A DNA stretch of 64,000 nt from Cyanobacteriota bacterium SRBZ.bins.94.201705. Lineage in GTDB: Bacteria; Cyanobacteriota; Cyanobacteriia; Cyanobacteriales; Cyanobacteriaceae. Position 1 is the stretch's first letter; every line of letters starts with the position of its first letter. Below the pieces are notes generated by a model. The model was not told the origin of the DNA, did no database searches, and was given only the letters and a program-made list of their open reading frames with translations. The DNA lies in contig JAUQQP010000029.1 in the NCBI GenBank assembly GCA_030549855.1, forward strand, positions 1 through 64,000, written 5' to 3'. The position numbers and the translations under genes were made by a program. This document shows, piece after piece, positions 3,217 to 52,460 of the stretch.

Positions 3217-3270
3217 TTTGTTCCCTAATACTTGTCTAACCCTTGTTGACTATCATACCCCTTTCTCCTC

Positions 3271-6090: not shown

Positions 6091-6104
6091 TGCGGTTCAC
6101 CTAC

Positions 6105-10198: not shown

Positions 10199-10271
10199 CT
10201 CCCTCTTTTCCTCCGCCAAGGAACAACTTTTGAAACCCGATCATAACACTTCCCCCCCCAGTCACGGACAT

Positions 10272-10300
10272 TTGTCTTTCTGCCAAAAATTTGTTATCAT
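10272..10300 (+). promoter_or_regulatory. promoter of tRNA-Gly
   Basis: TTGTCT (10272-10277) and TATCAT (10295-10300) are 17 bp apart. The predicted start near 10307 leaves a leader of about 60 nt before the tRNA. Confidence 0.6.
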
Positions 10301-10367
10301 ATATGCACAGAGAGAGGAGCTGGACTTGCTATGGACCCATAGCGAATACAGCTGGACTCAATTGCGG

Positions 10368-10439
10368 GCGGATGTAATTCAGTGGTAGAATGTCAGCTTC
10401 CCAAGCTGAACGTCGCCGGTTCGAATCCGGTCATCCGCT
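10368..10439 (+). tRNA. tRNA-Gly (anticodon CCC)
   Basis: The acceptor GCGGATG pairs with CATCCGC, followed by a T discriminator. The anticodon stem TCAGC/GCTGA encloses TTCCCAA, giving anticodon CCC for GGG codons. D arm TTCAGTGGTAGAAT and T arm GGTTCGAATCC are canonical. CCA is not encoded. A T-run follows directly and could act in termination. Confidence 0.95.
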
Positions 10440-10548
10440 TTTTTTTTTGCCCCACCCTCCACCCCTATCCCTACTGCCCCCTACCTCTCTACCACAATTG
10501 TTTTATTATGTCAAGGGGTAGGCAGGATGATTTTAACCAAAGACTGGC

Positions 10549-13874: not shown

Positions 13875-13940
13875 AAATTCTCATCTTTTCCTTCCTAATT
13901 CACTGTTGTTTGGGCTATCCCTCTCTCCCTGTTTTTCCTC

Positions 13941-14423
13941 ATGATTGCGATATATCCCGGCAGTTTTGATCCTATCACTTTGGGGCATTTAGACTTAATT
14001 AAGCGCAGTAGCACCCTTTTTGAAAAGGTCATTGTAGCTGTGTTAAGAAACCCCAGTAAACAGCCTCTTTTTTCTGTGGAGGAAAGGGTAAATCAAATCC
14101 GAGAATGTACCAAAGAAATTCCCAATGTAGAGGTAGATAGTTTTCAAGGTTTAACTGTGGAATATGCCAGGAAGAAAAAGGCGAGGGTTTTATTGAGGGG
14201 CCTGAGGGTAATGTCGGATTTTGAGCACGAATTACAAATGGCCCATATCAACAAAACTCTGGAAAGTTCCATAGAAACCGTTTTTTTAGCTACCAATACT
14301 GAGTTGAGTTTTATTAGTAGTAGCGTGGTGAAAGAGATAGCAAAATTTGGGGGAAATATTGACCATCTTGTCCCCCCAAATATAGCCAGAGAAATCTACA
14401 ATAAACTAGGGAAAAAAGGTTAG
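13941..14423 (+). CDS. coaD: phosphopantetheine adenylyltransferase
   Basis: A 160-residue enzyme that adenylates 4'-phosphopantetheine in the fourth step of CoA synthesis. It has the nucleotidyltransferase motif TLGH (residues 13-16) after YPGSFDP, and the C-terminal [10 protein letters not shown] motif. Length is normal for the family. The stop overlaps the convergent hslO stop by 4 bp. Confidence 0.97.
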
Positions 14424-34286: not shown

Positions 34287-35456
34287 TTAAGTGTCATTCA
34301 TCACAGCCAAAATTTTTTTTGCTATTCTCATTGAACCCCCTGTCTCCCCCATTCTTTCCCGCCCAAAAATGGCACATTTCTTCAAAAATTCTTTGTCTCT
34401 CACTATTTTTTGGATTAAATAACCTGCTTGTTCGCATCTTTTTTCTAGGCTTAGATGAGGCTTTACTGTTATAACATTTAATCCCAATAGACGTTGTTGT
34501 GCCTCGGCAAAACGATAGGTAAACTGGGGGCCATTGCCCGGAATTTGTACTACCGGTTTCCCCACTGCCACCGTTTGTTCCACTGCAGTCCCTGCCATCC
34601 CAATTGCCACATCACACTGGCTTATTATCTCCCCAAACATATTCCGATAAACTTCTACCTCCACCTCTTTTTTTCTCAACTTGCCTCCCGTATATTCCCA
34701 CCCTATCTTACCCCCCAATTCAGACAATAAATCGTCAGTTATACCCATGACTATTGCCGCACAAAATTGCCAGATTCCCCCGTATTCTTCTACCAAAATT
34801 TCACACACCCTGAGTTGGATAGCAAGATTATTTAAAGCCTCGGGTAAACGACTGCCTGGCAATAGGGCTACCATCCTTTTAGAAGGGCGTTTTAGGTTGA
34901 TTTTTTGGCTGATTGTATCCAGGATGGGATAACCTTCATATAAGACCTTTTTTAGCCCCTGTCTATTCAAGTCTTCTGCAGTAAACCTATCCCTGGCAAA
35001 CACCAGGAGACAACGGGGAGAATTAAGGATGAATCTGTCTAGGGGAGACAGTCTTAATTTCCCTTCGTAATAGCTGGAATATGACACCAGAAACGACACA
35101 AAATTTTTTCCAGTAAGGTAGGCAAATAAAAGAGGAACAGTATCCCCCACTGCTACCACAAAGTCATAGTTACTCTTAATTCTGCTTAGGGTATGTAACT
35201 GTTGCAGGGTAAGGAGAATAAGTCCAGAGGAGATGTCTTTAAAAACATTAACAGGATTGAGGTAAATAAAGCCGCCAGAAGGCATTTTTTTGACGGGAGA
35301 AACTACAGGAATATTCCTTCTAATATAACTCTCCCCCAGCCCCACAATCGGAAAACCATCTACCTCCATTTCAGGGCATATAATCCGCAATTTTTCTCCT
35401 ATTAAACTGGCATTTAAATCTTCGCCGTGTCCGTTGCTTATTAGAAGTATTCTCAT
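34287..35456 (-). CDS. lipid-A-disaccharide synthase-related protein
   Basis: A 389-residue glycosyltransferase-like protein with the opening LLISNGHGEDLNASLI and the C-terminal nucleotide-sugar region IGMAGTAVEQTVAVGKPVVQ. It belongs to the cyanobacterial/plant group related to LpxB but distinct from true LpxB; its substrate is unknown. It follows cax divergently and precedes argJ on the same strand by 43 bp. Confidence 0.8.
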   Translation of the reverse strand: MRILLISNGHGEDLNASLIGEKLRIICPEMEVDGFPIVGLGESYIRRNIPVVSPVKKMPSGGFIYLNPVNVFKDISSGLILLTLQQLHTLSRIKSNYDFVVAVGDTVPLLFAYLTGKNFVSFLVSYSSYYEGKLRLSPLDRFILNSPRCLLVFARDRFTAEDLNRQGLKKVLYEGYPILDTISQKINLKRPSKRMVALLPGSRLPEALNNLAIQLRVCEILVEEYGGIWQFCAAIVMGITDDLLSELGGKIGWEYTGGKLRKKEVEVEVYRNMFGEIISQCDVAIGMAGTAVEQTVAVGKPVVQIPGNGPQFTYRFAEAQQRLLGLNVITVKPHLSLEKRCEQAGYLIQKIVRDKEFLKKCAIFGRERMGETGGSMRIAKKILAVMNDT

Positions 35457-35675
35457 GGAATTAACCCCTTAGATCATCCGAAACATTATACCTCTAAACG
35501 CTCCCAAATATTTGCCATTTATATTACCACTTAACCTCTAGCAAAACCAACATAGGCTGGGGGGATAGATAGGGTTGTCATAGGAAAAATCTGTTATTAT
35601 AGGCCAAACCTTACAGGAATCACCAGGAAGTAAAAAATAGGCCAAAAGATTAGCAATATTACGTTTTAAAATTTT

Positions 35676-35704
35676 TTGTAAAAGAGACATAAAATTGATA
35701 TAAT
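35676..35704 (+). promoter_or_regulatory. promoter of cax
   Basis: TTGTAA (35676-35681) and TATAAT (35699-35704) are separated by 17 bp. The expected start near 35711 lies only about 20 nt before the cax ATG, which has no clear Shine-Dalgarno sequence. Confidence 0.65.
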
Positions 35705-35729
35705 CATCATAACCAAAAAACCAAAAAGT

Positions 35730-36803
35730 ATGAACAAGAATCAAATTTTCGCCCTGTTGTTGGCTTTCATCCCCCTTTCCCTGATGGCCGAGTATTTTCA
35801 CTGGAGTGAAACCATAGTTTTCCTAAGTGCAGCTTTGGCAATCATCCCCCTGGCAGCATACATGGGGGAAGCCACAGAAAATATAGCCCTAGTAACAGGG
35901 CCAAATATAGGCGGATTGCTAAACGCCACCTTTGGTAATGCCACAGAATTAATACTGGCTATTGTAGCCCTTAAAAGTGGACTAGTACAGGTAGTTAAAG
36001 CCACACTGACTGGCTCAATAATAGGAAATTTGCTTTTGGTAATGGGATTTGCCATGTTTTTGGGGGGAATCCGTTATAAGGAACAAAACTTCCAACCTAG
36101 TGTGGCACGTTTAAATGCCTCCACCATGAGTTTGGCGGTAATTGCAATTCTCCTCCCCACCGCAGTAGCCTTCACCTCCGATGGCATCTCTCCTACCACC
36201 ATGCAGGCATTATCGGTGGCGGTGGCAATAGTACTAATTTCCGTTTACCTGTTAAGCCTACTGTTTTCCATGAAAACCCACTCCTACCTATACCAGGTGG
36301 CAGAGGCAGACATAAAAGGAGAAAAAGAAGAGTCAGAAAAACCCAATCTGCCATTCTGGGTATTTATTCTATTCCTAGTAACAGTAGGGGTGGCAGTAGA
36401 GTCGGAACTACTAGTAGACTCCCTGGAATCGGCAACGGAAAGTCTCGGATTGTCCCCCCTATTCACAGGGGTAATATTCCTCCCTATTATAGGCAATGCC
36501 GCTGAACACGCTACCGCCATCACTGTAGCCATGAAAGACAAAATGGATTTATCCGTGTCTGTGGCCGTTGGCTCCAGTCTGCAAATCGCCCTATTCGTGG
36601 CGCCAGTCCTAGTAATAGTCGGCTGGCTAATAGGACAACCCATGGACTTGAACTTTAACCCCTTTGAATTGGTAGCAGTAGCCGTTGCCGTCCTCATAGC
36701 CAATTCCATCAGTGCCGACGGCAATTGCAACTGGCTGGAGGGCATTCTCCTACTTGCCACCTATACCATTATCGCCCTTGCCTTCTACTTTCACCCCTAT
36801 TAG
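35730..36803 (+). CDS. cax: calcium/proton antiporter
   Basis: A 357-residue CaCA-family exchanger with about eleven membrane helices. The two inverted repeats carry the ion-coordinating signatures TFGNATELI and IGNAAEHATA, which are specific to Cax proteins. An acidic loop (EADIKGEKEESEK) separates the halves. It exports Ca2+ in exchange for protons and supports calcium and alkaline tolerance in cyanobacteria. The stop is followed almost at once by a tandemly duplicated 149-bp segment. Confidence 0.93.
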   Translation: MNKNQIFALLLAFIPLSLMAEYFHWSETIVFLSAALAIIPLAAYMGEATENIALVTGPNIGGLLNATFGNATELILAIVALKSGLVQVVKATLTGSIIGNLLLVMGFAMFLGGIRYKEQNFQPSVARLNASTMSLAVIAILLPTAVAFTSDGISPTTMQALSVAVAIVLISVYLLSLLFSMKTHSYLYQVAEADIKGEKEESEKPNLPFWVFILFLVTVGVAVESELLVDSLESATESLGLSPLFTGVIFLPIIGNAAEHATAITVAMKDKMDLSVSVAVGSSLQIALFVAPVLVIVGWLIGQPMDLNFNPFELVAVAVAVLIANSISADGNCNWLEGILLLATYTIIALAFYFHPY

Positions 36804-36805
36804 CA

Positions 36806-37138
36806 GGGGAGTATTTATACCTACTGGCCTATTTGGGTCAGAATCCCCCACTGTCCTCCTTATTGTTAGAAATAATACCCTTTTTTTTTGGATTTGTCAA
36901 TAGCATTTCCCACAAAATTTTTCCTATTTTCTCAGTTTAATTCTCCGGGAAGCTCTGAGAACACAATAATACAGTAAAACTACAGATATGGGGGAGTATT
37001 TATACCTACTGGCCTATTTGGGTCAGAATCCCCCACTATCCTCCTTATTGTTAGAAATAATACCCTTTTTTTTGGATTTGTCAATAGTATTTCCCACAAA
37101 ATTTTTCCCATTTTTTCAGTTTAATTCCCTGGAAGAGA
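36806..37138 (+). repeat. direct duplication of a 149-bp intergenic segment
   Basis: Positions 36806-36954 and 36991-37138 are near-identical copies, offset by 185 bp, with about 95% identity by eye. Differences are a few transitions and one T in a T-run. Each copy begins GGGGAGTATTTATACC and contains AAATAATACCC followed by eight or nine T residues. The first part can pair loosely with that segment, so each copy could act as a terminator for cax or for the gene beyond. No terminal inverted repeats or coding capacity were found. Confidence 0.9.
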
Positions 37139-37163
37139 CTGAAACTGGAGGAAAACAAAGAGG

Positions 37164-37490
37164 TTACAAAGGTAAGGTAAGTGTTACAATCCGTTGTACA
37201 GTTTGTAGGAGAGGTTCCAGGTGACGTTGTTGGGAGTCTTGCCCCCTGGCAGAATACCAGAAGAGAAGCTGGGTATCGAGGATTCTTAAAAGGCGATGGG
37301 TTTCTCTTACCCAGGCTAAGCAACGGGAATTATCCCCCAGGGGAAGAATTTGGCCATAGAAGTACTGTTTTATCTCTTCCCACTTCTTTGCCACTACTGT
37401 TTTCTCCCGGCCACATTTGAGGGTTGTCTGAAACTGCCGCATCAACCCTACCCATTCCTCTAACAATTCTCTTTGTGACTTAGGTAACAT
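37164..37490 (-). CDS. PatD-like small protein
   Basis: A 108-residue helical protein. The middle-to-C-terminal pattern (QILPLGDNSRCLAWVRETHR, then LLRILDTQLLFWYSARGQ) resembles PatD, which affects heterocyst frequency in Anabaena through cell-division protein FtsZ. PatD-like proteins also occur in cyanobacteria without heterocysts, so a developmental role should not be assumed. No signal peptide or membrane helix. The ATG is near the divergent spoT leader, in between a strongly duplicated segment and the leader hairpin. Confidence 0.55.
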   Translation of the reverse strand: MLPKSQRELLEEWVGLMRQFQTTLKCGREKTVVAKKWEEIKQYFYGQILPLGDNSRCLAWVRETHRLLRILDTQLLFWYSARGQDSQQRHLEPLLQTVQRIVTLTLPL

Positions 37491-37786
37491 TTATACAAAA
37501 CTGAGCTACAATTGAATAAACTAATCTAACCTATGACAAGGCCTAAATAAAAGTAGCAAAATAGAAACAGAGACGCCCCTCCCCGATTGTAAGGAAAAAG
37601 AGGAAAAACAATCGGGCTGACCGCTGTTTCCATGGGGGTAAAATCCCCACAAAACTCCCACGCAAAGGGAGGAGTTAATCTAACAGACTACGCCCATCAT
37701 TGTACCCCATTTTCCCGGGGAGTTAATGTCCCAATATTACCCATTAATTATAGCTAAAAAATTAGGATAAACACAGAGGAAAAGTT
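37491..37786 (+). promoter_or_regulatory. leader region upstream of spoT
   Basis: These 296 bp carry a perfect 9-bp inverted repeat CCCGATTGT (37582-37590) and ACAATCGGG (37608-37616) around a purine-rich 17-nt loop. A GGGG-TAAAAT-CCCC hairpin near 37635 and a GGGAGGAG run follow. A ribosome site GAGG lies before the spoT ATG. The hairpins are not followed by T-runs, so structure in a long 5' leader is more likely than termination. Confidence 0.45.
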
Positions 37787-40063
37787 ATGAGTCCCACTAC
37801 CTTAACCACCCAAAAAACAGCAACAGAAAACGGCGCTAATTCGGCTTTTAGGTACAATGTGAAAATCCCAGACTGGTTGAATGAATGTCTACTGGGAGAC
37901 CAAAATGACAAGGATAATAATCTCATTTGTCGCGCCTTCCAATTTGCTTATTCCCTCCACGAGGGACAATTCCGAAAATCCGGCGAGCCATATATTGTAC
38001 ACCCTATTGCAGTGGCGGATTTACTTAAGGATTTGGGGGGGGATAGTGAAATGATTGCCGCAGGATTGTTACACGACGTGGTAGAAGACACCCCCACCAC
38101 CCTTGAGGACATAGAACAAATGTTTGGCAAAAATGTCCGCCGTCTAGTAGAAGGGGTGACCAAATTATCTAAGTTCAATTTTTCCAGCAAAACAGAAAGA
38201 CAAGCGGAAAATTTCCGCCGCATGTTTATGGCTATGGCTCAAGATATAAGAGTCATTCTAGTCAAATTGGCGGATAGGTTGCATAACATGCGCACTCTTG
38301 ATTTTTTACCCCCGGAAAAACAACGTCAAATTGCCCAGGAAACTAGGGATATTTTTGCCCCTTTAGCCAATCGTTTAGGTATATGGCAGTTCAAATGGGA
38401 ATTAGAAGATTTAGCCTTCAAATACCTCGAACCAGAAGCCTATAATACCATCAAAAAATTAGTAGCAGAAAAGAGGGCGGAAAGGGAAGCAAGAATAGAA
38501 AAAGTAATAAAAATTATTACCGAACGGTTGCAAGAAATTGGAATTAAGCCCATCGAAATTAAAGGAAGGCCAAAACACCTGTATAGCATCTACCAAAAAA
38601 TGATACGTCAGAATAAGGAATTTGACCAAATTTATGACATCGCCGCCGTTAGGATTATTGTCAATACCAAAGACGAATGTTATCGCGCCTTGGCAGTTGT
38701 CCATGATGTATTCCGCCCTATTCCTGGTAGATTTAAGGACTATATTGGCTTGCCTAAACCCAATTTATATCAGTCTCTGCATACCACTGTGTTTAATACC
38801 AATGGACGCCCCTTAGAAATTCAAATTAGGACACTGGAAATGCACTATATAGCAGAATATGGAATTGCTGCCCACTGGAAGTACAAAGAAGCGGGAAATT
38901 CCAACCTTAAACGTTGGTCAGAAATAGACCAAAAATTTACTTGGCTACGACAATTACTGGACTGGCAAAAAGACTTAAAAGATGCACAGGAATATGTGGA
39001 GGGCCTAAAAGAAAATCTATTCGACGACGATGTTTATGTTTTCACTCCCAATGGGGATGTAATTGCCCTAGCTAGAGGCGCAACCCCAGTAGATTTCGCC
39101 TATCATATCCACAGTGAAATAGGAAACCACATGAAGGGTGCCAGAGTAAACGGCAAATGGTCACCTCTGGATCAGCCCTTACAAAATGGAGATATAGTAG
39201 AAATCATCACCTCTAATAACAGTCACCCGAGTCTTGACTGGCTAAACTTTGTTGTAACTCCCACTGCCAGGAATCGCATTCGTCAATGGTTTAAAAAATA
39301 CCATCGAGAAGAGAATATTGCCCGTGGCCGAGAATTATTAGAGAGAGAATTGGGCAATGCAGGGCTAGAGTCTCTGTTAAAATCAGAGGTAATGCAACGA
39401 GTGGCTCAGAAATTTAATTTTCAAAAAGTAGACGACTTATTAGCCGCCTTAGGCTATGGAGAAATAACTTGCACTCAGGTTATTAATCGTCTGAGAGAGG
39501 AAAATAAACAGTCCCAATCAGATAAATCCCAACTTCTCCTTGACACCTCCTTCACCGGCACTACCAAAGAATACCGCCAAGAAGATAATGGCAAATACCC
39601 CATTTCTGGCATCGAGGGGTTGTTATATCATATTGCCGGCTGTTGTAAACCCCTGCCAGGGGAAAATATTATCGGTGTGGTTACCAATACCCGTGGTATC
39701 TCCATTCATCATCGGGATTGTCCTAATCTTCATCATATACCCCCTGAAAGACTTATCCCCGTCTCTTGGAATTGCTGTAGAAACGATACTCCCCGTCGCA
39801 GTCTCACCTACCCTGTAGACATAGTAATTGAAACTATTGACAGAGTCGGCATCCTCAGGGATATACTGGGCAGACTTAGTGATTTAAACATTAATGTCAG
39901 CCACGCCTCCGTTAAAACCCATGCTGGCAAACCTGCCACTATCTCCCTCACCATTGATGTCACAGACTATAAACAATTTACAGAAGCCATTACCAGAATC
40001 AAAAATATTTCCGATGTCTTGAATGTGCGTCGTGTGACTCAGGTGAATGGGGCACACAATTAG
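37787..40063 (+). CDS. spoT: bifunctional (p)ppGpp synthetase/hydrolase
   Basis: A 758-residue Rel/SpoT protein. In order: an HD hydrolase domain (HPIAVADLL, HDVVEDTPTT), a synthetase domain with GRPKHLYSIYQKM, a TGS domain (VFTPNGDVIALARGATPVDFA), a helical linker, a zinc-finger-like segment (YHIAGCCKPLPGENI, HHRDCPN) and a C-terminal ACT domain. Both active sites look intact, so it should make and degrade the alarmone. It is the last gene before the 10.8-kb gene desert. Confidence 0.95.
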   Translation: MSPTTLTTQKTATENGANSAFRYNVKIPDWLNECLLGDQNDKDNNLICRAFQFAYSLHEGQFRKSGEPYIVHPIAVADLLKDLGGDSEMIAAGLLHDVVEDTPTTLEDIEQMFGKNVRRLVEGVTKLSKFNFSSKTERQAENFRRMFMAMAQDIRVILVKLADRLHNMRTLDFLPPEKQRQIAQETRDIFAPLANRLGIWQFKWELEDLAFKYLEPEAYNTIKKLVAEKRAEREARIEKVIKIITERLQEIGIKPIEIKGRPKHLYSIYQKMIRQNKEFDQIYDIAAVRIIVNTKDECYRALAVVHDVFRPIPGRFKDYIGLPKPNLYQSLHTTVFNTNGRPLEIQIRTLEMHYIAEYGIAAHWKYKEAGNSNLKRWSEIDQKFTWLRQLLDWQKDLKDAQEYVEGLKENLFDDDVYVFTPNGDVIALARGATPVDFAYHIHSEIGNHMKGARVNGKWSPLDQPLQNGDIVEIITSNNSHPSLDWLNFVVTPTARNRIRQWFKKYHREENIARGRELLERELGNAGLESLLKSEVMQRVAQKFNFQKVDDLLAALGYGEITCTQVINRLREENKQSQSDKSQLLLDTSFTGTTKEYRQEDNGKYPISGIEGLLYHIAGCCKPLPGENIIGVVTNTRGISIHHRDCPNLHHIPPERLIPVSWNCCRNDTPRRSLTYPVDIVIETIDRVGILRDILGRLSDLNINVSHASVKTHAGKPATISLTIDVTDYKQFTEAITRIKNISDVLNVRRVTQVNGAHN

Positions 40064-40126
40064 CTATCATAAGGGGGTGTGATGCTATCTAATCCCCCCT
40101 CTTTTGTCATCTGCCTCTTTCTGGCA

Positions 40127-40281
40127 TGAGAAACACCGACAACCCACGCCTTGTCTACCCCCGATGACAAAAACGTCAACATGCAGTCTGCCTTCCTGGG
40201 AGTATAACAAATGCCACTGACATAAAACCTGTTTTTTTCCCTTCCCTGAGAAACACCAACACGGGATTTGTCTACCGGTAA
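40127..40281 (+). repeat. paired repeat, 120-bp step
   Basis: TGAGAAACACCGACA...TTGTCTACC at 40127 and TGAGAAACACCAACA...TTGTCTACC at 40247 are two related copies of about 35 bp, exactly 120 bp apart. They lie less than 220 bp past the spoT stop and mark the start of the repetitive desert. Confidence 0.7.
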
Positions 40282-40790
40282 GAGAAACACTTGGTGAGAG
40301 AGACATTATATAGCTGTTTGTTTTTTTTCTCTGTAACAGACATCAACATATTTTCCTTCCCCAGCTGTTTGATTTAAAATCCAACAAGGAAATGCCAGTG
40401 ATTCTTCTTTCCTGTTGTCGGGGTTAGACAGAAGATGTCTGCCGTAAAGTCGGATGTTGTCCAGTAATCAAACCGGGGGAAATGATATTATGATGACAGG
40501 AAAGACAGTTAAAACACAGACTGTGTGCCAGTCATACTTTTGTGGCTTTTCTAGGGGGGAAGACTTCCATTAACTCGTTTGGAATTGAAGATATTTACCG
40601 CGGAGGGATTTTCTGTTTTTCCACTTGTGGACTTTATATCACTCGTCAGGTTTTAATAGGGTTAGTCTTCTAGTCATTTTCCATCCCCACATGCAAGCAA
40701 AGGGGAAAAACAAATAATAAAAGGCAAACACCCATCACCCCTCAAACCCAACCCGTCTGTGTTTCTATTCCCCCTTCTAGAAATTAACCG

Positions 40791-40979
40791 CCCTCTATAA
40801 CAGTCGGCTTATAATCTATTCAGAGAAACGGGCATCCATTTAGCAGATGGAGGGTAAGGAATAATTTGTACTTCTTTCAAAAAAAAATCAGGCAGACTCC
40901 CTCTATGGCAGTCAGCTTGAAATCTTTTGGGGGAAACAGGAATCAATTTGGCGGTAAACAGGGAGAAATAAATTATGCC
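40791..40979 (+). repeat. paired repeat, 108-bp step
   Basis: Two segments of about 80 bp begin with CCCTCTAT at 40791 and 40899. Of the first 60 positions about 42 match without gaps, including CAGTC(G/A)GCTT and GAAAC. The similarity fades towards the end and would need gaps. Confidence 0.65.
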
Positions 40980-41085
40980 TTAGGGATGAGTCTACAGCTG
41001 GCAAAGTCAAGAGGCAAAAAGCAAAAGAAGGATTTTTAGGCCTTTTTAAAGATTATAACCTTTGCTTCGACCACTCCCTGAGTAT

Positions 41086-41557
41086 TGGAAATTGTTACCC
41101 CTGGGAAAACAGTCTTCAATCTGTCAGTCTATTGGCATTTTCATTGTCAGTAGAAGTTATAATCCCAATTACTAAAAGCTATCGAGGCTATCATGAAGAA
41201 AAACCTCTCCCACAGACGAATACCATCCCAGTCAAACAACCAAACCGAGGTAACTCACAACCTACTAAGACTGTAGAAATATACCCCTGTTGTCATATCC
41301 AAAAAAACCCAAGTATGAGTATATCAGTGCCATGCCTCTTATCCCCCGTCAATAGGATGATAACGGTATTGGAAATCGTCACCGGGAAACAATCCCTAGC
41401 CTTTCAGTTTATTAGCATTTCCTCTACTGGCATAACTTACAATCCAATGGCTAAAAGCCGTTTGATTGACATTCCTATTGTAGAAGCAAAGGAGAGAAAA
41501 ACCCCTTAGATGGATACAATTCCAGTCAGACAACTGCCTGGAGGCTAATCACAACCT
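41086..41557 (+). repeat. paired repeat of about 180 bp, 284-bp step
   Basis: Segments 41086-41263 and 41370-41557 align along their whole length with gaps. Both begin TGGAAAT and GGGAAA, share CAGT(C/T)TATT(G/A)GCATTT, ACTAAAAGC-like and CAGTCA(A/G)ACAAC blocks, and end TCACAACCT. The middle holds a word similar to the module found throughout 42-48 kb. Confidence 0.7.
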
Positions 41558-42064
41558 TTCGCCTACACTTCAGATGGCCATTTTATCGCCTCCGGATATT
41601 TGTGAGTGTGACTGTGTTTAAATCTAAATTTGTGTTAGGAGGGATTCCTGCGTATATTGATGGCATAAATGAGGGTAAAAAGGCTATTTTTACTCCCGCT
41701 AGTATTTTGGAAAAAATTCCACCAATGGCAGAAAAAAAAACTAGTTTACTGGGATAAATTTTGGGACAAAAAAAGCCAACTATAAAATCCGCATGACAAC
41801 AGACAGCCGAAACTAAAATTTCACCTCTAACTCTGATGGCTTCTTGATTTGAAGGAAGGAGGCAAGACTCATTTGAAGGCCAAAATTTGCCCCTTGAGTA
41901 GGTTAAAGCCATCTAAAATCCAGAATATCCCCCCGAAACCAAAAAGTTTGAAAATGGTGGATTGTACTTATTTAAGTTCATCCTATAAATACCGATGTAA
42001 TTTTTATGAATAGGGAGTAAATAACGGGGAAAATACCGTGTTAAACTAATAAAACCTTACCACA

Positions 42065-42120
42065 CCTTTTCTTACCCTCCTTTTTTCCTTTTTCTTTTTT
42101 CTTTTTTGTTTTTTCTTTCC
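42065..42120 (+). other. polypyrimidine tract at the left edge of the array
   Basis: About 50 bases of nearly pure C/T, mostly runs of four to seven T broken by single C. It separates the A+T-rich stretch 41.93-42.06 kb from the C-rich repeat array. No gene is near, so it is unlikely to be a simple terminator. Confidence 0.6.
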
Positions 42121-45100
42121 GTATCCCGGCTGAAAATACCCTCTCCAGTTGTCTGCCTGTTGACACTCTCCTGCCAACGACTATCTCAACAAATAGTAAA
42201 CCTGCCAGTAGCTGTCTCCAGCTTACGGTATTGGCAGTCTAATTAGATTACCCCTGTGTCTACTAATGGCAGTAGGCTGAGGCTAAAAATGTCCACCAGC
42301 CTCTCCATTTCTTTTCCTAATATTATTCCACCACCTTCTGACAGTGTCTATCTCCATTGTAACCACTGTAAGTAGTAATTCAATTATGTTTGGCATTGTT
42401 ATCAAAACTGGTATCCAGCCAACTAGACTAAGCTGGAGTAAAATGATGCCAAAGACAACTGAAAAATGTGTCTCCCCCTTTAGTTGTTTGCATCCCCACA
42501 ATTGTGTCTAACATGACAGCAGAAATCCCAAAACCAACCACCTGTCATCCGCTGCCATAGCAGCCGCCACAACCATAAGTCTACCAGTCGGCTGAGGTAG
42601 TGGGTGAGAGTGACATCCTGCCGCCAAAAATATCTATTCCCCGGCGGTTTGTCTGTTATCATAGAGATTTCCCCCTCCTGCCTACCACAACCGCTGACAA
42701 CTTTATTTAATTCCCTCTCCAATATCCTTATTGGCATTTCCACCACAACTTATCTCCACCACGTCTTTACCAAAAGTCTCCTCGTGAGAAACTACATATA
42801 GTCATCTGCTTATATCTTTTATGTTTGCCAATGGTATTCCCATTACCAACCAAGTAAGGTTATCCACTTGTTGGCATGGCAGCTACAACTGAGAGTCTGC
42901 CGGTGGTTGGCAGTGTGTCTTAAACAACATCTATTTGGTTGTTGTTTGCCAGTTAACTCTGTTTGTTGCCATTACCACCGTCTTTTCCAACCAACTAAAC
43001 CCTATGAAAATATCTATCTCCCCAGTCATTCACTATAGTTTGCCTCACGGTAACTGTCAACTGCATCCACAGTCAATAAGCCACTTGCTTGCTATGTCTA
43101 TCCATATTCTTCGGGATTGCTATCTTGTTACAATACCCATCTGCCACTGAAAATAAATTATCTACCCACAACTATCGCCACTCCCGCCAGCCAATAGCTG
43201 ACAATGCCTATATTCATTTCTTTCACCCCTAGGTATTTATCCATTCACCCCGTCGCTATCTCCGTAACCAGTGTCTATCAATCATCTGCTAACATTCTAC
43301 CCCCCCCTCACTATTTGTTTTTGGCATCTTTTCCACAACTGTAGCCTGCCAACACTCTTAGCTTGTCTGATGACGGGGTTTTATTCTTCTCCTATATAAC
43401 CATTGGTTTGATTGGTTTATTAGTATCTCCACTAAAATCTGTTTCCGCCAACTAAACCCACGGCATGCCAATGAATTACAAATAACACTCTCCCCCCGCA
43501 TAACTTCCCATAACCGTCACCCTCCTTTACCCCCTGCTAGTCAATAAAAGTGTCTATTCTCTCTCTGCCTATTTTTTATTAACCCCATTGCTATTCCCAC
43601 CACTAGTGTTTGTCTACCAGTCAGCTATTATCCACCTCCAATCCAAATATCTCCTGCCAGGAGTACACTGATTTAGTAATATTGAATTAATTCACCCATC
43701 CTATCGGCATCTTCCTTCCTTTCGGCATCTTCCTTAAAACCCTCATCCAGCAAAGTCTGAAAGCAATACGCCTATAGTAACTGAAACCACTGGCATCTTT
43801 CTTTTGCCTGGCATATCTTCCACAAGCAATAGTCTACCAACAACATTCCCTTAAACAAAAAGATGCGGTTATCCACTTCCGATTATAGTCACCACCACTA
43901 ACCCTCAAGACTCTTCTGCTATTGGTGTTACTAACTACTATGCCATTGTCTGAAATTTGTTTTTCTCCTAGTCTTCCACCAACTCAATTATATTGCTATT
44001 CTACCCCTAGCATATTGCCACCACTATGCTAAAAATAGCTATTTCCCCCCCAGTCATCCCATTAGCATCTTTATCACTTATATTTGCTACCCATATACGA
44101 CTACATGCGGTTATTCACTAATGCCTACGGCTAATCTCCAGTGGCAACAATATACAGTCATACATTTGTCGGCATAGTCGCTAATACTGAGATTCTGCTG
44201 CCACCTACCACAGAAAATATCTACCCCCGTTTGGTTGTTTACAAGTTAATTCTATTGGCATTGCCACCAGATTCTCTTCCAGCCAACTAAACCACATGAA
44301 AACACCTCTCCTCCCAGTCATTCACTGTAGTCTGCCTCACGGTAATTGTCAACCGCATCAACAGTCGATAAGCTATCTGCTTGCCACTTTCATTGCCACC
44401 GCGTCACAACCTCTAGCTGCTGTTAATAGGCAAGAGGCTGAAGCCAAAAATACCTACCTACTACCCCACACCTACAGATACACCTCTGGCATCATTTTTC
44501 TCTGCTGCTCATACTACCACTTGGAGGTCAATAGTTAACAACATTCATTTCTCCTCTTTTGGGTTATCCGTCAATTTATTTCATTGCTATCCTCACCAAT
44601 AATCTACCCTCCACCCCTCACCAGCGGCATACCAATTCAGTCGTCTTAAATCCAGTCATCCCACTAGCATCTGCCTCTTCAAAACTTCTATTGGGTAACT
44701 AGTCTGAAGCAGGATGCCAATGGCTGAAATATATACCCCTCCAGTTATTTGCCTACTGGTATCCTTCCCCAGTATTGTTACAACCTCTTACACCGCCGTC
44801 TACTCCTCCGTATCTCCACCACGACTATAGTCTGCCAACAGTATCCCCAAAAACAACCCATACGGTTATCCTCCTATATACCTGACATCTGCTAATAATA
44901 CTCTCCCCGCCTGTTTATATAACCTCCACAACCCCACTATGCCACTTGTAATGGTATGCCATTGTGGCCAGTATTATCAAGACTGATATCTATTTTTCCG
45001 TTAAAAGTCTACAAGCATCCCTGGTAATAAATTGTCACCAGCTAAAACCGTCTAAGAATATCCACCCTTTCCCCAGTCGTATACCCGTTGGCATTTCCAT

Positions 45101-48100
45101 GACAAATTATATTTGCCAAGAATTTCTCCACCAGCAACTACATACGAATATATGTCTATATATCCCCACTCGCTAGTACTATTTTATATTTCAACAGAAA
45201 CTTCATAGAGTCATTTACCTGTTGGAATAGTCTGCTAGACTAGACTGACATTAATTATTATTTTTCCGTTGTTGACTGGTTTATTGTTGCTGGCATTCCC
45301 ACCAAAGCTTGTTGCTAGTTACCACTTAGGGTTAAAGATTTAACCTTCCTCCAGTCAGTCATCTACCCATTAGCCTCTGTTTCCCAGTGACTGTCAACCG
45401 CGTCAAAAGTCAATACACCACTTGCATGTTGTCTCTGTCTTCCTGTGTTGTATGGTGGTGTCTCTACTATCATCAAGAGTCTACTAATGACAGTTTGCTA
45501 AGGCTAAATGCATGTAGTCATTTTTCTCCTGGATTACTCACCCATTATACCTATTCCCCTGACTTATGTCTTCCAATAACGCCATATCAAACCACCAATA
45601 GCCGATTTACTCATTTTCATCTCATGAATCACCATGGTGTGTGTCTATTAGTCATGCCTCAAAAGCATACCACCATCTTCTCCGTCAGTGGCATGGCAAC
45701 AGCTTGAAAATGGCAGGATGCCAATGGCTGACACATATATCCCCCCCTTGTCTGCCTGTGGGTATCCAGGGGAAGTATTGTTATAATCGACTCCATGCCT
45801 TAGAGTCATTAGCATACCAACCACAGACATAATCTGCCTTCCAACAAAAATAACGAGATACAGTCATCTACTGATGGTAACAATCTTTTCCACTGGCTAG
45901 TGTAGCCTCTCTATATTCTGCCATTTTGCTGAGTATCATGCCGTCAGCCGAAATATATTTTCCGGTTTTCTACCGACTCATCCTATTACCATCTCCATCA
46001 TACATGGTACATCCCACTAACTGTCCTTGTGAAAATGTCTGCCTTCTCTTCTCTCTATTATCCCCCATATGCCTTCCCAATCCCAACTCCCATCACCACT
46101 TGTATCTGCCAACAATGGTTTCCCCCAACAAATGCCGTCGTCTGTTTATATCTTTCCTGCTAATGGGATTCCTCCCACTTGTGGCTACAGCCGCCACGGC
46201 TAAAAGTCTGCCAGCCAGTAGTTAGTTGGTGGGTGGGTGGCAATGAATGAATGGTATGCCGCTGAAAACGTATCTCTATGGTTTGTATACTAATTCTTTC
46301 CAGAGGCATTTCCCCTTTCCACCTGTAACAACCCCTAACTTTAACAACCGTTAAAGACTTCAATCCTTTCTCCCTTATTGTTAGTATCCCCACTATACCT
46401 CACGTTTGCCAGAAGTCTCTCCAAAAAAAAATACCCACGGTTATTTACTCATATCCCCCGTCAATGGGGTTTCTGGAGGCAATCATATACATTCATCCAC
46501 CTATTGGCATGGCAGTGACAACTGAGATTATGCTAGCCGCTGGCTGGTGAGTAGAAGTATAGCCGCAGATACTCTCTATTTTCCCGTTGTTTGCCAGTCA
46601 AATTTAGGAGTTGTTATCTCTGCCAAAGTCTGTTTCCATCAAACCCCAAGGCTGAAAAAATCTACTTTTCCCCCAGTCTTCCACTCATCCCAAAAACAAC
46701 CAGAGGCAGTAATCTACTTAATTCTCTCGCCAATGGCATCCCCGTCACTAACCCCACACAGTCACCCGCCGGCATAGTTGTCACAACACAAAGGCAGTCT
46801 GCTAACTAAAACCACTAGTGTGTAGCCGGGGATATATTTATTCTCTCCCTAGTCATTAAATAAATTTTATCACTATCCCCATCATAGACTGTTGCAGCCT
46901 ACGACAACCTCTTTTACCCCCTTAGTCATTCACTTATTGGTATTCCCTTTACAACCAGTGTCTGCCAGGAGTCTTTTTATCAACAAGTGTTTTTCTCAGT
47001 CTACATACCCCCTGCCATTAGTATTCATCTTATAATCCCCTGCAGTTATCTAATTGTTGGAATAGTCGCCACCACAAAAAGTATGGCATTGTCTCTCCCA
47101 ATCCTCCATCGGCAACCATCTATTGTATCGTCAAAAAATATCAATCCCCATCAACATCTATTCTCCTATTGTTTGTCCACTAATTCGTCTTGGCATTCCC
47201 TTCACAGTCTGTTGTCACCAGCAACCACAGCCAAAGGTGTTTATTTTCTGGCCAGTCTTCCACCTGTTGCCATTTTTCCACAGCCGGTGTCTACCAGCCT
47301 TGTTAGCTGCCAACAGACGGTTATTAAGTCTAGTTTCTGCCTTTTTATACCTTGATTCCCCTTCTGTCTCCATATATGTCTACCAATAGCCGGATACGAC
47401 TTACTGACTAAATACTGTTTTCTATCCACTTGTCTTAATTCATTCTATTGCTGCCGCTACGGCTTTTTTCTACCTACCATATCCCCCCTCCATCTCCCTA
47501 TTGGTGTTTTCACCTCAATCCACCTACTGTCACTGACTAACATTTCTATCCTTGTTTCAGTCGTCTAGTATTCTTACGTAATACGTAGTTGCCACTTTTG
47601 TTGTTTAAGCTGACAAGACTAGTGACTAGATTGACGACTAAACAAAAAAGTATGCCTGCCAGCTACTCAAAACTAATATCCCTTGACATACCCATTGCTG
47701 TCATTTTCCTCCACCAATCTTAATAGGCTACCGCATAATAACGCCTATTCTCTCTCCAGTATTCTATCTACCCGTCATACCTGCCAAAAAGTAAAAACTG
47801 ATACTCCCCCATACACTCATTGCCAACATTTTCCCCTAGCAGTGGCCATAATAGTCTGCCACCACCTGACAAAATCTATTCTCCCCCTGGCAATTCGTCA
47901 ATTAATATGCCTGCCTACAACCTACGACAGACAGTCTCTCCCCCACCTTTCCATTGCTACTTTTACCCCTCGACAGTAGTCTTAATAGTCTGCTACTTTC
48001 TGATAACAACTGTTTCCCCCCACTAATCCCTCTGCCGGAGTGTGTTTGCCAAATACTGAAAACTAATGTCTTAATGACATATCCCTTGTTAATACTGTTG

Positions 48101-48420
48101 TCTGCCAACAACTTTAATTTTCTGCCACCGCCTGACAACATCTACCCCCCCAGTCATCTTTTGATTCCCATTGTATTCCCACCACCACCGCTGGCAAGTA
48201 GCCGAATACATACCAACAATCTACCAGTTGCCGATAACACTTTCAGCTTTTTTGATTATAGTACTCCCATCAACTTTTATATGCACCTAGTCTACTGCTT
48301 ATGTCTACCAACACCAACAATCTCTCTCCATTGCCTTTCCGAGTTTTTTATTGACATTCCCCCTGCTGGTGTCTGCCGGGATTTTCCTACTGCCTAACAA
48401 CACCTATTTTTCCATCCACA
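42120..48420 (+). repeat. degenerate satellite-like repeat array
   Basis: Four short words recur in a usual order: TTGGCAT(C/T)TCCACCAC; then AGTCTGCCA(A/G)C; then ATCTATTCTCCCC; then AGTCATCCAC. I count roughly 35 recognisable versions of the first word, for example near 42733, 43321, 44256, 44812, 45084, 45290, 46941, 47192 and 48168. Basic units are often 65-75 bp. Between 47.73 and 48.42 kb the CTATTCTCC-type word recurs at 47745, 47876, 48010, 48142 and 48404, steps of 131, 134, 132 and 262 bp. Larger blocks recur at 1.04-1.32 kb. Copies are diverged, often 60-80% similar, with indels. Confidence 0.75.
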
Positions 48421-48424
48421 CGGG

Positions 48425-48476
48425 TTTATGGTTATAAACCCCAAAAGACAGGAGTAGGGGTTTACAATTGTAAATC
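48425..48476. other. two adjacent palindromic segments
   Basis: GGTTTATGGTTATAAACC and, about 20 bp later, GGTTTACAATTGTAAATC each read almost as their own reverse complement; TTTACAATTGTAAA is a perfect 14-bp palindrome. The two share the GGTTTA end. They sit at the right boundary of the satellite-like array and could be a protein-binding site or a small hairpin pair. Confidence 0.6.
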
Positions 48477-48810
48477 TCAAAACTCCCCCTGCCAGAGGTT
48501 TATTGCTATTGTAGAAGCTAACTGCCATCCGGCATATTGTCATCTTGGGGGTTTATTGCCATCTTTTTCCACCACTTTTCTCCCCTTTCAGTTGACTGGA
48601 TATATTGTAACTTTCCATGACTTGTTTATGAGGGATGGTTGTTTACTAGTAGTTGCTGGCAGTGATTATTATTCCCCAGCCAGTCGTCTATTAGTTTTGG
48701 CTAATATTTGTTGGCTAGTAACATATCCACCTTTTTTCTATAAGTTTGGATTTCCAAGACAACCTGTGTCATACCGCCTCTCAGTCACTTTGTATTTTTA
48801 CCTACTAGAA

Positions 48811-49075
48811 GTGTTGGAAACAAGTATCTGAATCACCTGGAATATATCGAAATTTACAGAAACCTATCATACAATTACATGGAATCCTCCCAGTGGCAAG
48901 GGGGGTGTGGCAATTCAAGTCTAGCAATTCAAGAAAGAAAGAAAGAAAGAATTTCTATCATAGTCACTCCGCTTCTCCAGCCGTAGGTGTTGAAATGAGT
49001 ATCCGAATCAGAGAGTAATATCAAAATCCATTGGAATCTGTCATAGGATTTTCACATGGATCACAGTCACAGTGG
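48811..49075 (+). repeat. paired repeat, 176-bp step
   Basis: Segments starting at 48811 and 48987 share GTGTTG(G)AAA, AGTATC(T/C)GAATCA, TATC(G/A)AAAT, CTATCATA/TGTCATAGG-like and ACATGGA(A)TC blocks over roughly 85 bp. They belong to a different sequence family from the 42-48 kb array. Confidence 0.65.
48931..48951 (+). repeat. AAGA tetranucleotide microsatellite
   Basis: Five uninterrupted AAGA units between the two members of the 176-bp-step repeat. Directly upstream the word CAATTCAAG also occurs twice. A slippage-prone tract with no gene to control nearby. Confidence 0.9.
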
Positions 49076-50381
49076 GAGAATGGGAGTCGGCTGTGGGTGA
49101 GTATGGCGGCTACTGGAGAAGGGGAGAATTTATAGGGCAAAACAACTTCTACTAGGTAGTATAATCCTCCATAGGGAAAAGCGGGTTTCTTTTGAAATAA
49201 ATAGGGTGTTTATTATTTGCTGCGGGGTTTCAAGCAGTGGGAATAAAGACTACCCCGGCAGGCAAAATTAAACAAATCTGCAATAGCCGACAGACATAAC
49301 ATCTATCACCAGTTATTATATGGGTTGATGACACAACGGGAAAATTTATAACACCCTGGGGGAAGAAGACTCTACCCTTGCGGCATCTAAGGATATACCC
49401 ACCCCCATTCTATTTTGATTATCTGCTTCCGTCGACAGAAAGACACGGGGAAAAGGGGTGATTAATAATGCCGACGTGGATTTTCCTGTAAAACTACACC
49501 CTTTAACAATGGCAAAAGCAAAGACGGAGAAGATTGTCATAATACTAACAAACGCCCATCAACTGAGACAATAAACGATTACGCTTAACCTTCGTCGGCA
49601 AATAGAGAAGAAATTGATAAAATCAAGTTTCCAACACCTTAATACAGATGACTCGCCAGGAAAAAATACCAAATACCCCCGGGAGAATGAGGCAAAAAAT
49701 TGCCAAGTCTTAAATCAATAAACTTCCCCCTGTCAGCCGTCAGTGGCAGTAAAAACACTAAAAGGTTTTTTCTTTAACCATGTATCCCACGGATTTAAAA
49801 AAATTCTCGTCAAACAAAGACTGAGAGAAAAAACTGGGGAAGTATCGCCTCCTGTAAACCCCACGGGGAGATGACTTAGACTCCGGAGTGATAAAGCTAT
49901 CCAGGGAGATAATGATACAACTAACAGAAGAGGGAGAAAAACCAGCAAAAAGAAACCCACATTCGTATATAAAAAAACTGGCAAAAACCATCATTTGAAA
50001 ACCTCCCAATCCATATAGGGGGGTAGCCACAAGGAAAACAGACAAGGCAAAACCCTCAACCAATAGACAAAATTCTCAACCCCAGAAATGGGTTAAACCT
50101 CCATGGATGCCGTAAAAATCAACACCCACTATGCCACCGCCTAGAAACATTCACCCCCCTCTCCTTACTGATTACCAGTCATGCATGCCATGTCCATTAT
50201 CCACTCCGCCATCCCCCCTTTACACCATCCCTCTAACACTGCCAAAACAAACACCCCGCCGGTTAAACCACAGGGGAGGAAACCGGCATACCACCGGCAA
50301 CTGGCAGTCCATACCTCCACCTTTTAGCCTCTAACTTTTTGCCTCTACCGCGGGGGAGGCAGAAGTCTTCTTTTCAGATAT

Positions 50382-50791
50382 ACCCTTTATATGGACACAC
50401 CTATCCCCATTATACTTACCATGATAACAAAAACAAGTGAAAGAGTCAAGGGCAAGCCGCCACTTTTTTTCACCCTATATAATATGCGCACACCTACCCC
50501 ATTCTATCATTACATTTTAGCAAAAAAGCAAAAAAAAGTCAAGGGGACAGTCACCAGAGAGGTAAAAAAATTACCCCCGCCCCGGCTGATGGCAAAAAGG
50601 CACATCCCAAGAGCGCAGAAGACAAATACACGAGCCCCCGGCCACTAGCACTTGCTCTTCTCTTACCGGAGAAAAAATAGGAAGCTGCCCGCAGGTGACT
50701 GGGAGGTTTTTCCTCTACCCTATATATGCGCGCACACCTACCCCATCCTAACTACCATTCTAACAAAAAAACAAAAAAAAGTCAAGGGGGC
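50382..50791 (+). repeat. three-copy repeat of about 75 bp
   Basis: Copies begin at 50382, 50472 and 50717. Each reads ACCCT(A/T)TATA..., then CACACCTA(C/T)CCCAT, then an A-rich run of AACAAAAA type, and ends AGTCAAGGG. The second and third are the most alike. The last ends about 70 bp from the stop of the NDP-sugar pyrophosphorylase gene. No T-run hairpin is obvious. Confidence 0.8.
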
Positions 50792-50862
50792 ACGGCAGTA
50801 GAAGAGAAGAAAACAGGCCCTTGTCCCCGGCAATAGGGTCAAAAGGAGTTGCCAAAGGGGTA

Positions 50863-52020
50863 CTACAGTTGTTTGACAAGGTCGGTGATGAGTTGTCCCT
50901 GTTGTGCGTGGTTGAGGGTGGTTTGGCGAGAGTCGGTGATGAGCCAGTCAATGGCAGCGGCTTGGACGTCGATGGCGGTGCCGTTTTTGTCTACACAATA
51001 ACGACCAAACACCAGCTTGTTGGCTAAATAGACACCTGAGCCAAGACGAGAGTATTCAAAAATAACGCTGTTGTCTACCGTCGCCCCTTGACAGATGAGA
51101 CAGTTAGGCCCGATCATAGAAGGACCAATAATTCTGGCCCCATCTTCTATTTTAGTCATGCCGCCTATGTATACAGGGCCGGTGATGTCTACCTTGTCCC
51201 AGTTTACACACACATTTAAGCCGGTGTAAATGCCTGGTCTAACTTGTCTGCCGGGTATCTGGACATTTTTGATTTCTCCCCTTAAAATAGCCCTAATGGC
51301 ATGCCAGTAGTCAGGCACTCTCCCAATGTCCACCCATTGGAATTCCATGTTGACTGCGTAGAAGGGGAGTTTCAATTCTACCAGGCGGGGAAACAGTTGG
51401 CTACCAATGTCGTATTCTTGATTTGGGGGGATGTAGTCAATAACCTCTGGCTCAAATACATAAATACCAGTGTTGATTTGCTGGCTTAGGGCTTCTTCCC
51501 TTTTGGGCTTTTCCTGGAAGGCTATGACTCTGTCGTCAGAGTCTGTAACTACCACCCCATAATTGGATACCAACTCCCAGGGCACTTTTTTTGTGACTAC
51601 TGTAGCTATTGCCCCTTTTTGTTTATGCCTTCTTACCACCTCGGTTAAGTCCAAGTCTATTAGGGCATCGCCGCAGAGTACCACAAAAGTGTCATCAAAA
51701 AAGGGATTAAAGTCCTGGATTTTCCTTATACCACCAGCTGAGCCCAAAGCCTCCCCTATCAGTTGCCCGTCTACCACACGCCCCTCAAAGGAATAGGCAA
51801 TTTCCACTCCAAACCGTTGGCCATCCCGGAAATAGTTTTCGATTTCTTGTGCCAGGTGACTCACATTGACCATTATCTGGGTGAAACCGTGTTTCCGGAG
51901 TAACTCCACTAGAAACTCCATTACCGGTTTCTGGAAAATGGGGATTAGGGGCTTGGGGATAGTATAGGTGATGGGACGAATGCGGGTGCCCTTCCCCGCC
52001 GCTAATATCATTGCTTTCAT
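50863..52020 (-). CDS. NDP-sugar pyrophosphorylase with left-handed beta-helix domain
   Basis: A 385-residue sugar-1-phosphate nucleotidyltransferase. The N-terminal catalytic domain has the signature LAAGKGTRIRPITYTIPKP and the metal/substrate segment LCGDALIDLDL. From about residue 250 a hexapeptide-repeat domain follows (VDITGPVYIGGMTKIEDGAR). This arrangement is used by mannose-1-phosphate guanylyltransferases and glucose-1-phosphate uridylyl- or thymidylyltransferases; the sugar cannot be decided here. The start MKAMILAAG is the conserved one; the open frame extends 24 codons further with no similarity. Confidence 0.88.
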   Translation of the reverse strand: MKAMILAAGKGTRIRPITYTIPKPLIPIFQKPVMEFLVELLRKHGFTQIMVNVSHLAQEIENYFRDGQRFGVEIAYSFEGRVVDGQLIGEALGSAGGIRKIQDFNPFFDDTFVVLCGDALIDLDLTEVVRRHKQKGAIATVVTKKVPWELVSNYGVVVTDSDDRVIAFQEKPKREEALSQQINTGIYVFEPEVIDYIPPNQEYDIGSQLFPRLVELKLPFYAVNMEFQWVDIGRVPDYWHAIRAILRGEIKNVQIPGRQVRPGIYTGLNVCVNWDKVDITGPVYIGGMTKIEDGARIIGPSMIGPNCLICQGATVDNSVIFEYSRLGSGVYLANKLVFGRYCVDKNGTAIDVQAAAIDWLITDSRQTTLNHAQQGQLITDLVKQL

Positions 52021-52073
52021 AGATTTCTGTCCCTTTTTTAGTCTTCTTCTCCTAGTGTACCCCGCTTCCCCCT

Positions 52074-52460
52074 TTATCTCACGGCGATGCACTCGATTTC
52101 CACTAAAACGTCCTTGGGTAGACGGGCTACCTGTACACAGCTACGGGCTGGCGGCGAAGAAGGGAAATATTGGCTATAAACTTCATTCATGGCGGCAAAA
52201 TCGTTTAAATCCTGGAGAAATACCCCCGTCTTCACCACGTTTTCCCAGCCTAGTCCCTCTTGCTTCAATATAGCGCCGATGTTTCTCATTACCTGCCTTG
52301 TCTGTGCTACTATGTCCCCCTCCCCCACTATCTCCCCCGTTTCCGGATTTATTGGAATCTGTCCCGCTACAAATATAAACTCGCCTTTAGCTACTATGGC
52401 CTGGCTGTAAGGGCCTACCGGTGACGGCGCCAGTGAGGTGTAAACTACTCTTTTTTCCAT
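52074..52460 (-). CDS. RidA (YjgF) enamine/imine deaminase
   Basis: A 128-residue protein of the RidA family, which hydrolyses reactive 2-aminoacrylate and related enamines from PLP enzymes. Features include the [10 protein letters not shown] opening, the FVAGQIP segment, the catalytic-arginine region [11 protein letters not shown] and the final VEIECIAV. The start at 52460 matches the family N-terminus. It lies between psaC and the pyrophosphorylase on the same strand. Confidence 0.93.

Follow-up and report, generated by a model that had tools for sequence, protein, structure and literature searches.

The DNA analyzed here (the window) is a stretch of 64,000 nucleotides (G000:C48:1-64000) from a cyanobacterial genome, G000, whose assembly comprises 2.87 Mb in 51 contigs. 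In this window, rsh and a nucleotidyltransferase gene enclose a gene-free gap of around 10.8 kb (40,064 to 50,862), within which lies a degenerate array of head-to-tail repeats (Table 1). Among the 33 named loci listed, the best match of the rsh protein was that of Geminocystis sp. GBBB08 (75%), which suggests a position within or close to the Geminocystis/Cyanobacterium family. A sequence-only reading of the same DNA had drawn attention to the array as a satellite-like element, and the limits it had set, 42,120 and 48,420, fit the results reported below.

Reality and structure of the repeats

That the repetition goes beyond chance, as that reading had supposed, was evident from word counts as well as from self-BLAST. 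The array contained 1530 8-mer pairs, compared with a mean of 592 and a maximum of 640 in 20 dinucleotide shuffles, and 12-mer and 14-mer pairs were also in excess (41 vs. 2.9 and 9 vs. 0.1 in shuffles, respectively). Four other 6.3-kb pieces of the window likewise exceeded their own shuffles, with regard to 8-mers by 1.2–1.6-fold as against 2.6-fold in the array; the piece at 35,000-41,300, which contains a near-identical direct repeat, surpassed the array in 12- and 14-mers. The four words that had been said to recur dozens of times do so only as a degenerate set. As exact words, three of them were found once each and one never, whereas with up to 4, 2, 3 and 2 mismatches, 13, 11, 16 and 20 occurrences, respectively, were counted on the forward strand, along with 0 to 2 on the reverse strand and averages of 0.5 to 4.5 in shuffles (n = 20).

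Inside the array, all repeats recovered by self-BLAST were direct, with approximately 60–73% identity and offsets between 125 and 3,627 bp; over the gap as a whole (40,061-50,865), 10 direct and 0 inverted pairs were detected. Larger blocks of the array recur as same-orientation duplicates at distances of 0.1 to 3.6 kb, with multi-unit duplications at offsets of 1004, 1296, 2326 and 3627 bp. All matches of the unit model in the window fell on the forward strand, and GC skew over 42-48 kb ranged from −0.25 to −0.45. Because the copies are too diverged, Tandem Repeats Finder (TRF) was nearly blind to the array: at a score of 40, it returned one 37-bp fragment within it and the CTTTTTT tract at its left edge.

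The repeat unit was described, by means of repeat modelling, with a circular profile allowing insertions and deletions. The best-fitting profile had 71 columns, with the fitted consensus cAGTtATCTACCTATTGgCATtcCCaCCACaAcctgTGTCTGCCAatggCTgAaAATATCTATtttCCctC, and when trained on the array it gained 886 bits over a composition null, compared with 261–310 bits for 8 dinucleotide shuffles that received the same training. Random profile starts reached likelihoods below those of seeded starts of similar unit length. Decoded units ranged from around 45 to 107 bp (median, 70 bp) with elastic spacing, and plain autocorrelation of the array revealed no dominant lag. In line with the strong divergence noted in the sequence-only reading, the copies have drifted to approximately 60% identity to the fitted consensus. 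The possible continuation to the right of the array (Table 1) scored −2 bits as a block vs. −33 bits in shuffles, and the window at 48191-49375 of the sliding scan described below gave −26 bits.

In cyanobacterial clustered regularly interspaced short palindromic repeats (CRISPR), the length of a repeat plus its spacer is close to 71 bp. The fitted unit is near this length, which would suit a decayed CRISPR array, considered here together with other known mobile repeat families. The CRISPR layout was nevertheless absent from the array, in which conserved columns occur throughout the unit and no constant repeat alternates with unique spacers. Furthermore, searches of 50,697 phage records and 72,556 plasmid records gave no array match at E ≤ 0.01, and BLAST with the whole array revealed neither a second copy in G000 nor a match in 39 relatives. 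Such an identity is hardly credible.

Table 1. Positions of the array, its parts, its neighbors and other repeat loci of G000 (window coordinates unless a locus is named)
Feature	Position	Strand	Basis or remarks
Degenerate head-to-tail array, C-rich/G-poor on the + strand	42120..48420	+	Word excess, profile training and decoding, held-out test, sliding-window scan
Pyrimidine-rich tract, left edge of the array	42068..42120	+	Sequence; TRF CTTTTTT at 42080-42118
Duplicated segment, copy at 46188-46685	42561..43034	+	Self-BLAST; 61% identical, offset 3627
Duplicated segment, copy at 44122-44384	42826..43092	+	Self-BLAST; 71% identical, offset 1296
Segment with the best-scoring match in the G001 array	44649..44858	+	BLAST between arrays; 65.6% over 218 columns
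Duplicated segment, copy at 45713-45868	44709..44870	+	Self-BLAST; 67% identical, offset 1004
Sub-array	47652..48158	+	Self-BLAST; matches at offsets 125, 259, 390, 60-65% identical
Possible weaker continuation of the array	48421..48740	+	Decoded units of 17.6 to 38.6 bits
Diverged direct-repeat pair left of the array, separate from it	41082..41557	+	Self-BLAST; 63%, offset 284
Small separate direct-repeat family adjoining the nucleotidyltransferase gene	50367..50846	+	Self-BLAST; 70-83%, offsets 96, 244, 335
rsh (RelA/SpoT family), left flank	37787..40063	+	NCBIfam TIGR00691
Nucleotidyltransferase gene, right flank, convergent with rsh	50863..52092	-	Pfam PF00483
Tandem array, G-poor, 95-bp unit, with more degenerate G-poor sequence beside it	L073 (G000:C4:60001-80000) 13337-13847		94%
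Tandem array, 18-bp unit GGTTTATCCCTATCCCTA	L075 (G000:C6) 16569-16983		90%; higher period of 87 bp, 95%
Tandem array, C-rich, with a 36-bp unit; lies immediately downstream of a + strand gene	L075 (G000:C6) 13572-14347		80%; 72-bp period, 82%
Second old degenerate array, different unit (CCACTGGCATCCAGACAA-like words)	L067 (G000:C17:76000-86000) 3429-5600		
Diverged direct duplication of about 1 kb with further internal repeats	L085 (G000:C30:20001-40000) 9475-11288		66%, offset 881

The array in a sister species

One same-genus genome was found, G001 (2.8 Mb in 110 contigs; rsh, 94%; nucleotidyltransferase, 95%), whereas no other strain of the species itself turned up. Downstream of rsh, it carries a decayed sensor-kinase gene followed by around 2.4 kb of this array, oriented as in the window, and this occurrence at the same place in an independent assembly argues against a misassembly. 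The right side in G001 may differ, the nucleotidyltransferase gene lying 446 bases from the end of its contig. The direct-repeat family that adjoins this gene in the window has matches in part in the sister genome (locus L038). The contig that bears the sister array and a second contig (G001:C38:1-162 and G001:C86:1-162) both terminate in the beginning of one and the same gene for a small membrane protein, with 54 residues identical between them, which reflects either a real duplication or an assembly overlap.

When held out from training, the sister array scored +152 bits with the window-trained profile, compared with −143 bits (standard deviation, 11) for 20 shuffles, −120 bits when reversed and −653 bits when reverse-complemented, whereas models trained on shuffles gave −21 to +4 bits. 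Its score was positive, from 36 to 159 bits, with 42 of 42 fitted models (32 of them from random starts, without shuffle control). A sliding scan with windows of 1,185 bases was also performed over sampled parts of five genomes. The windows of the array itself, which are training data, reached +112 to +194 bits and its edge windows −43 and −26 bits; those of the sister array gave +33, +107, +1 and −104 bits (the last lying mostly outside the array). None of the 2,892 other windows exceeded +3 bits. Judged by these scores, the window array and the sister array share an origin.

A search of 40 genomes with the unit model, whose rows came from both arrays, located the array in G000 and its sister only: among the candidates scored, at most 125 per genome, 15 matches had E < 0.003, of which 12 fell in the window array and the remaining 3 in that of the sister. 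Matches at E ≤ 1 occurred in all 40 genomes and were chance-like. Five genomes that represent three further genera of the family (G003, G004, G005, G007 and G008) have a second open frame, of at least 110 codons, within around 1 kb after rsh.

With regard to divergence, 787 of 1262 fourfold-degenerate sites in eight genes (62.4%) were identical between G000 and G001. Array matches longer than 60 columns were 63–71% identical between the species and 58–73% identical within the array (BLAST). From these comparisons, we infer that the array predates the split of the two species, which would make the detectable block duplications about as old as the split. Mismatch rates in columns of low, middle and high conservation were 0.33, 0.30 and 0.28, respectively, between duplicated copies in G000, and 0.28, 0.32 and 0.24 between species. 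The array sequence thus appears to be under no strong constraint, and weak constraint may exist, given the uneven conservation of its columns. Because the divergence matches that of fourfold-degenerate sites, the drift was probably neutral, without a selected function. The columns look C/T- and A/G-dominated; however, decay by transitions only, or a purine/pyrimidine constraint, was rejected on the transition/transversion ratios, which were 1.22 within the array (459/375) and 0.96 between species (191/199), both summed over partly overlapping BLAST pairs, and 1.42 at fourfold sites.

The decayed sensor kinase of the sister genome occupies positions of about 2700-6300 of locus L037 (G001:C38), on the minus strand, between rsh and the sister array. 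Of its domains, GAF was recognized over the cut-off (E = 4.8e-6), HisKA (3.4e-4) and response regulator (3.4e-3) below their cut-offs, and PAS and HATPase at E 0.1-0.2 only. Genes do die, then, in this intergenic interval, which lends some plausibility to the array being what is left of a gene with repeated protein motifs, one of the explanations offered in the sequence-only reading. Three-base periodicity of the array (1.86) also equals that of the decayed kinase (1.81) and exceeds that of the flanking gaps (1.26 and 1.20), so that this test does not separate the array from a decayed gene. Nevertheless, the value is far below those of five real genes (3.3–6.7), the sister array reached only 1.33, and the wide spread of unit lengths fits poorly with a coding repeat. 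Furthermore, a frame-aware search of the six read-through frames of the array gave no Pfam match at E ≤ 1, whereas the kinase retains its GAF trace. A gene remnant is left unsupported by that search, and we consider it quite improbable.

No DnaA match at E ≤ 0.001 was detected in G000, G001 or G002 (G002 being 67% complete). Seven other genomes of the family gave only matches far below the cut-off, and DnaA was over the cut-off in five of five genomes from other families of the order. As described in a published report (PMC7198777), loss of dnaA and multi-site replication occur in Cyanobacterium aponinum and Geminocystis, and two relatives carry many chromosome copies per cell. DnaA-less, polyploid replication could be relevant to how such DNA arises, although the link is speculative, and G003, G007 and G008, which are also without a full DnaA match, lack the expanded gaps described below. 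Missing DnaA matches and replication from many sites, along with the same place being kept in two species, would be in agreement with the array consisting of functional DNA sites, namely many degenerate binding sites for a chromosome-organizing or replication factor. Against this stand the divergence close to that of fourfold-degenerate sites, the lack of strong column constraint, in a comparison of limited power, and the distribution of the unit: in the other 38 of the 40 genomes searched, which include family genomes without full DnaA, no match was better than one stray in G023 (E = 0.0034). Nothing supports the chromosome-organizing site suggested in the sequence-only reading, the conserved columns changing almost as often as the rest, and we regard functional DNA sites as improbable. 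Loss of mismatch repair as a cause was also considered and found unsupported, since MutS matches exceeded the cut-off in all 13 genomes searched.

Gene-free gaps and other arrays in the genome

The genes around the array had been described as otherwise packed, which misread the setting: long gene-free, repeat-bearing gaps are common in G000. The sample assessed for gaps comprised 457 kb of G000, counting the window, and 163 kb of G001, together with 200 kb from each of the relatives G003, G007 and G008. Gap fractions exclude the window, any locus retrieved on account of the array or its model, and rRNA gaps (one dropped in G000 and one in G003). With the lenient gene call used (coding 0.79; first call, 0.68), gaps of at least 1 kb made up 7.0% of 363 kb in G000 and 4.8% of 136 kb in G001, compared with 0.5% in G003, 0.6% in G008 and 1.7% in G007. 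When the loci retrieved in this way were kept and the window left out, the values were 8.3% in G000 and 9.2% in G001. Small genes are overlooked by such calling: a PatD-like frame of the window, which scores below the family cut-off, falls within a gap of the first call. Beside this frame, at 36806-37135, there is a 147-bp direct repeat (95% identity, offset 185).

Inside gaps of at least 300 bp, G000 held 52 direct and 0 inverted repeat pairs, distributed over 9 of 57 gaps. One direct pair was observed in G001, none in G003, two direct pairs and an inverted one in G008, and one inverted pair in G007. Pairs between different gaps numbered 12 in G000, 0 in G001, 6 in G003, 44 in G008 and 121 in G007, that is, dispersed repeats are commoner in two relatives (G008 and G007) than in G000; a first comparison of this kind had used 22 of the 48 listed gaps.

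The window array is the largest of several arrays, young and old, in the sampled parts of G000 (Table 1). Three young or intermediate arrays, one in L073 and two in L075, are all C-rich on one strand. Blind profiles gave a mean of 139 bits/kb in L067, a locus fetched because of a weak unit-model match, vs. 109 in two shuffles; the corresponding values were 145 vs. 111 for part of the window array, 175 vs. 115 for the L085 duplication, and 124 vs. 115 and 119 vs. 114 for two controls. The 36/72-bp and 95-bp arrays, which were searched for in G000 and four other genomes, matched at their own place only, with no match in G001, and the turnover of arrays may be fast, though the G001 assembly is fragmented. 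A common family uniting the window array with the younger ones was rejected as too weakly indicated: an L075 array, at +3 bits, was the sole one of the 2,892 non-array windows above zero. The z-score against dinucleotide shuffles proved a poor control across families, as other gaps or the wrong strand reached z of 5 to 17 and the wrong strand of the window array 25.

Like the window array, three of the longest tandem arrays sampled in G000 follow a gene encoded on the strand on which they are C-rich. A general rule to this effect was rejected, given that, of 77 skewed arrays from five genomes, 43 have an upstream neighbor that reads toward them (p = 0.36; 10 of 13 in G000 alone). In the same test, the downstream neighbor was on the same strand in 28 of 77 (p = 0.022, uncorrected). 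The failure of this rule weighs against a very long non-coding RNA made from one strand of the array, another of the earlier explanations, to which the strong and consistent strand asymmetry and the position downstream of rsh on the same strand would lend themselves. Promoter-like matches over 40-51 kb, 25 of them on the minus strand, were also more numerous than in shuffles (34 vs. 23; standard deviation, 4.7), but such matches are no evidence of transcription. In addition, no consensus base pair was predicted in 46 edited unit rows, which leaves a structured RNA unsupported; an Rfam search of the window returned three tRNAs and no other match, and strong sequence constraint is lacking. The RNA is thus, in our view, about as improbable as the array of binding sites.

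Proposed birth, growth and decay of the array

Of the explanations put forward in the sequence-only reading, a decaying satellite is the one that is supported. The stretch is probably an aged bacterial minisatellite, near the end of a cycle in which such arrays arise, grow and decay neutrally. A short C-rich unit would have been amplified head to tail downstream of rsh before the split of G000 and G001, presumably by replication slippage and unequal exchange between repeats, and many chromosome copies per cell possibly helped this amplification. The array may persist as the lineage tolerates, and keeps producing, intergenic repeat DNA under what would be a weak deletion pressure. G000 appears to hold several stages of the cycle, with arrays around 94–95% alike, one around 82% and at least two old ones.

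Several observations weigh against this interpretation. With regard to the unit, only 43% of the bases aligned between duplicated copies share a profile column; the register is therefore uncertain, and the 71-bp unit is a best fit with no sharp period. Column conservation in the fitted unit varies from 0.07 to 1.25 bits, which is more uneven than one would expect for a single ancestor decaying at a uniform neutral rate. A noisy register combined with base-specific mutation may be the cause, and constraint on a few bases may also contribute. Columns of high conservation change slightly less often, the strand asymmetry has survived much of the drift, and the identities between array segments are upper estimates, since BLAST picks similar segments. 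With regard to the genome, the gaps rest on a crude gene call in which missed genes were checked for rRNA only, and two young arrays on a single contig account for 30 of the 52 repeat pairs of G000. The repeat habit is seen in G000 and not yet genus-wide, with one sister genome and one direct pair in its sample, where the broken assembly may be hiding repeats.

Bacterial minisatellites, or variable-number tandem repeats, consist of intergenic units, each tens of bases long and arranged head to tail, with one locus per array. The window array resembles them in its head-to-tail units, intergenic position and single locus, but it is far longer (around 6.3 kb or more) and far more diverged, contains block duplications, and is one of several arrays in a genome with many long gaps. 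With eukaryotic satellite DNA that has higher-order repeats, it shares tandem monomers and blocks duplicated as larger units, and the L073 array, by eye, shows a regular core beside more degenerate G-poor sequence as eukaryotic satellites do; it differs from them as a single, small bacterial locus with no known chromatin role and no recent homogenization. Cyanobacterial heptamer repeats (short tandemly repeated repetitive sequences) have 7-bp units in short arrays that are often G-poor on one strand, and they occur in the relatives G007 and G008. The window array is likewise tandem, intergenic and G-poor on one strand, but its unit of around 71 bp, its length of kilobases and its single locus set it apart. 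G000 can also be compared to Trichodesmium, as a cyanobacterium with unusually much non-coding DNA; in one report (PMC4649490), 40% of the Trichodesmium genome is given as non-coding.

The array is tandem-repeat DNA, a kind already known, but we take its form to be unusual for bacteria. The novelty lies in intergenic DNA growing in a satellite-like manner in a cyanobacterium that has no detectable DnaA, and in literature titles and abstract openings we did not find such arrays described for this family. It is possible, though rather doubtful, that the DnaA-less lineage keeps making intergenic C-rich arrays that grow to kilobases, duplicate in blocks and decay, as in the life of a satellite, or, in a bolder form of this idea, that some of them replace the DnaA origin as replication or chromosome-organizing sites.

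Bacterial genomes are expected to shed DNA for which they have no use. In the two sister species, an array that looks function-less appears to have been retained while their fourfold sites fell to 62% identity, which raises the question of what relaxes deletion pressure; candidates are polyploidy, DnaA-less replication, small population size and a repair defect. The finding is also a warning against assuming that a long gene-free region of such a genome must conceal genes or RNAs, and it would provide a bacterial system in which the birth, growth and death of tandem repeats can be followed.

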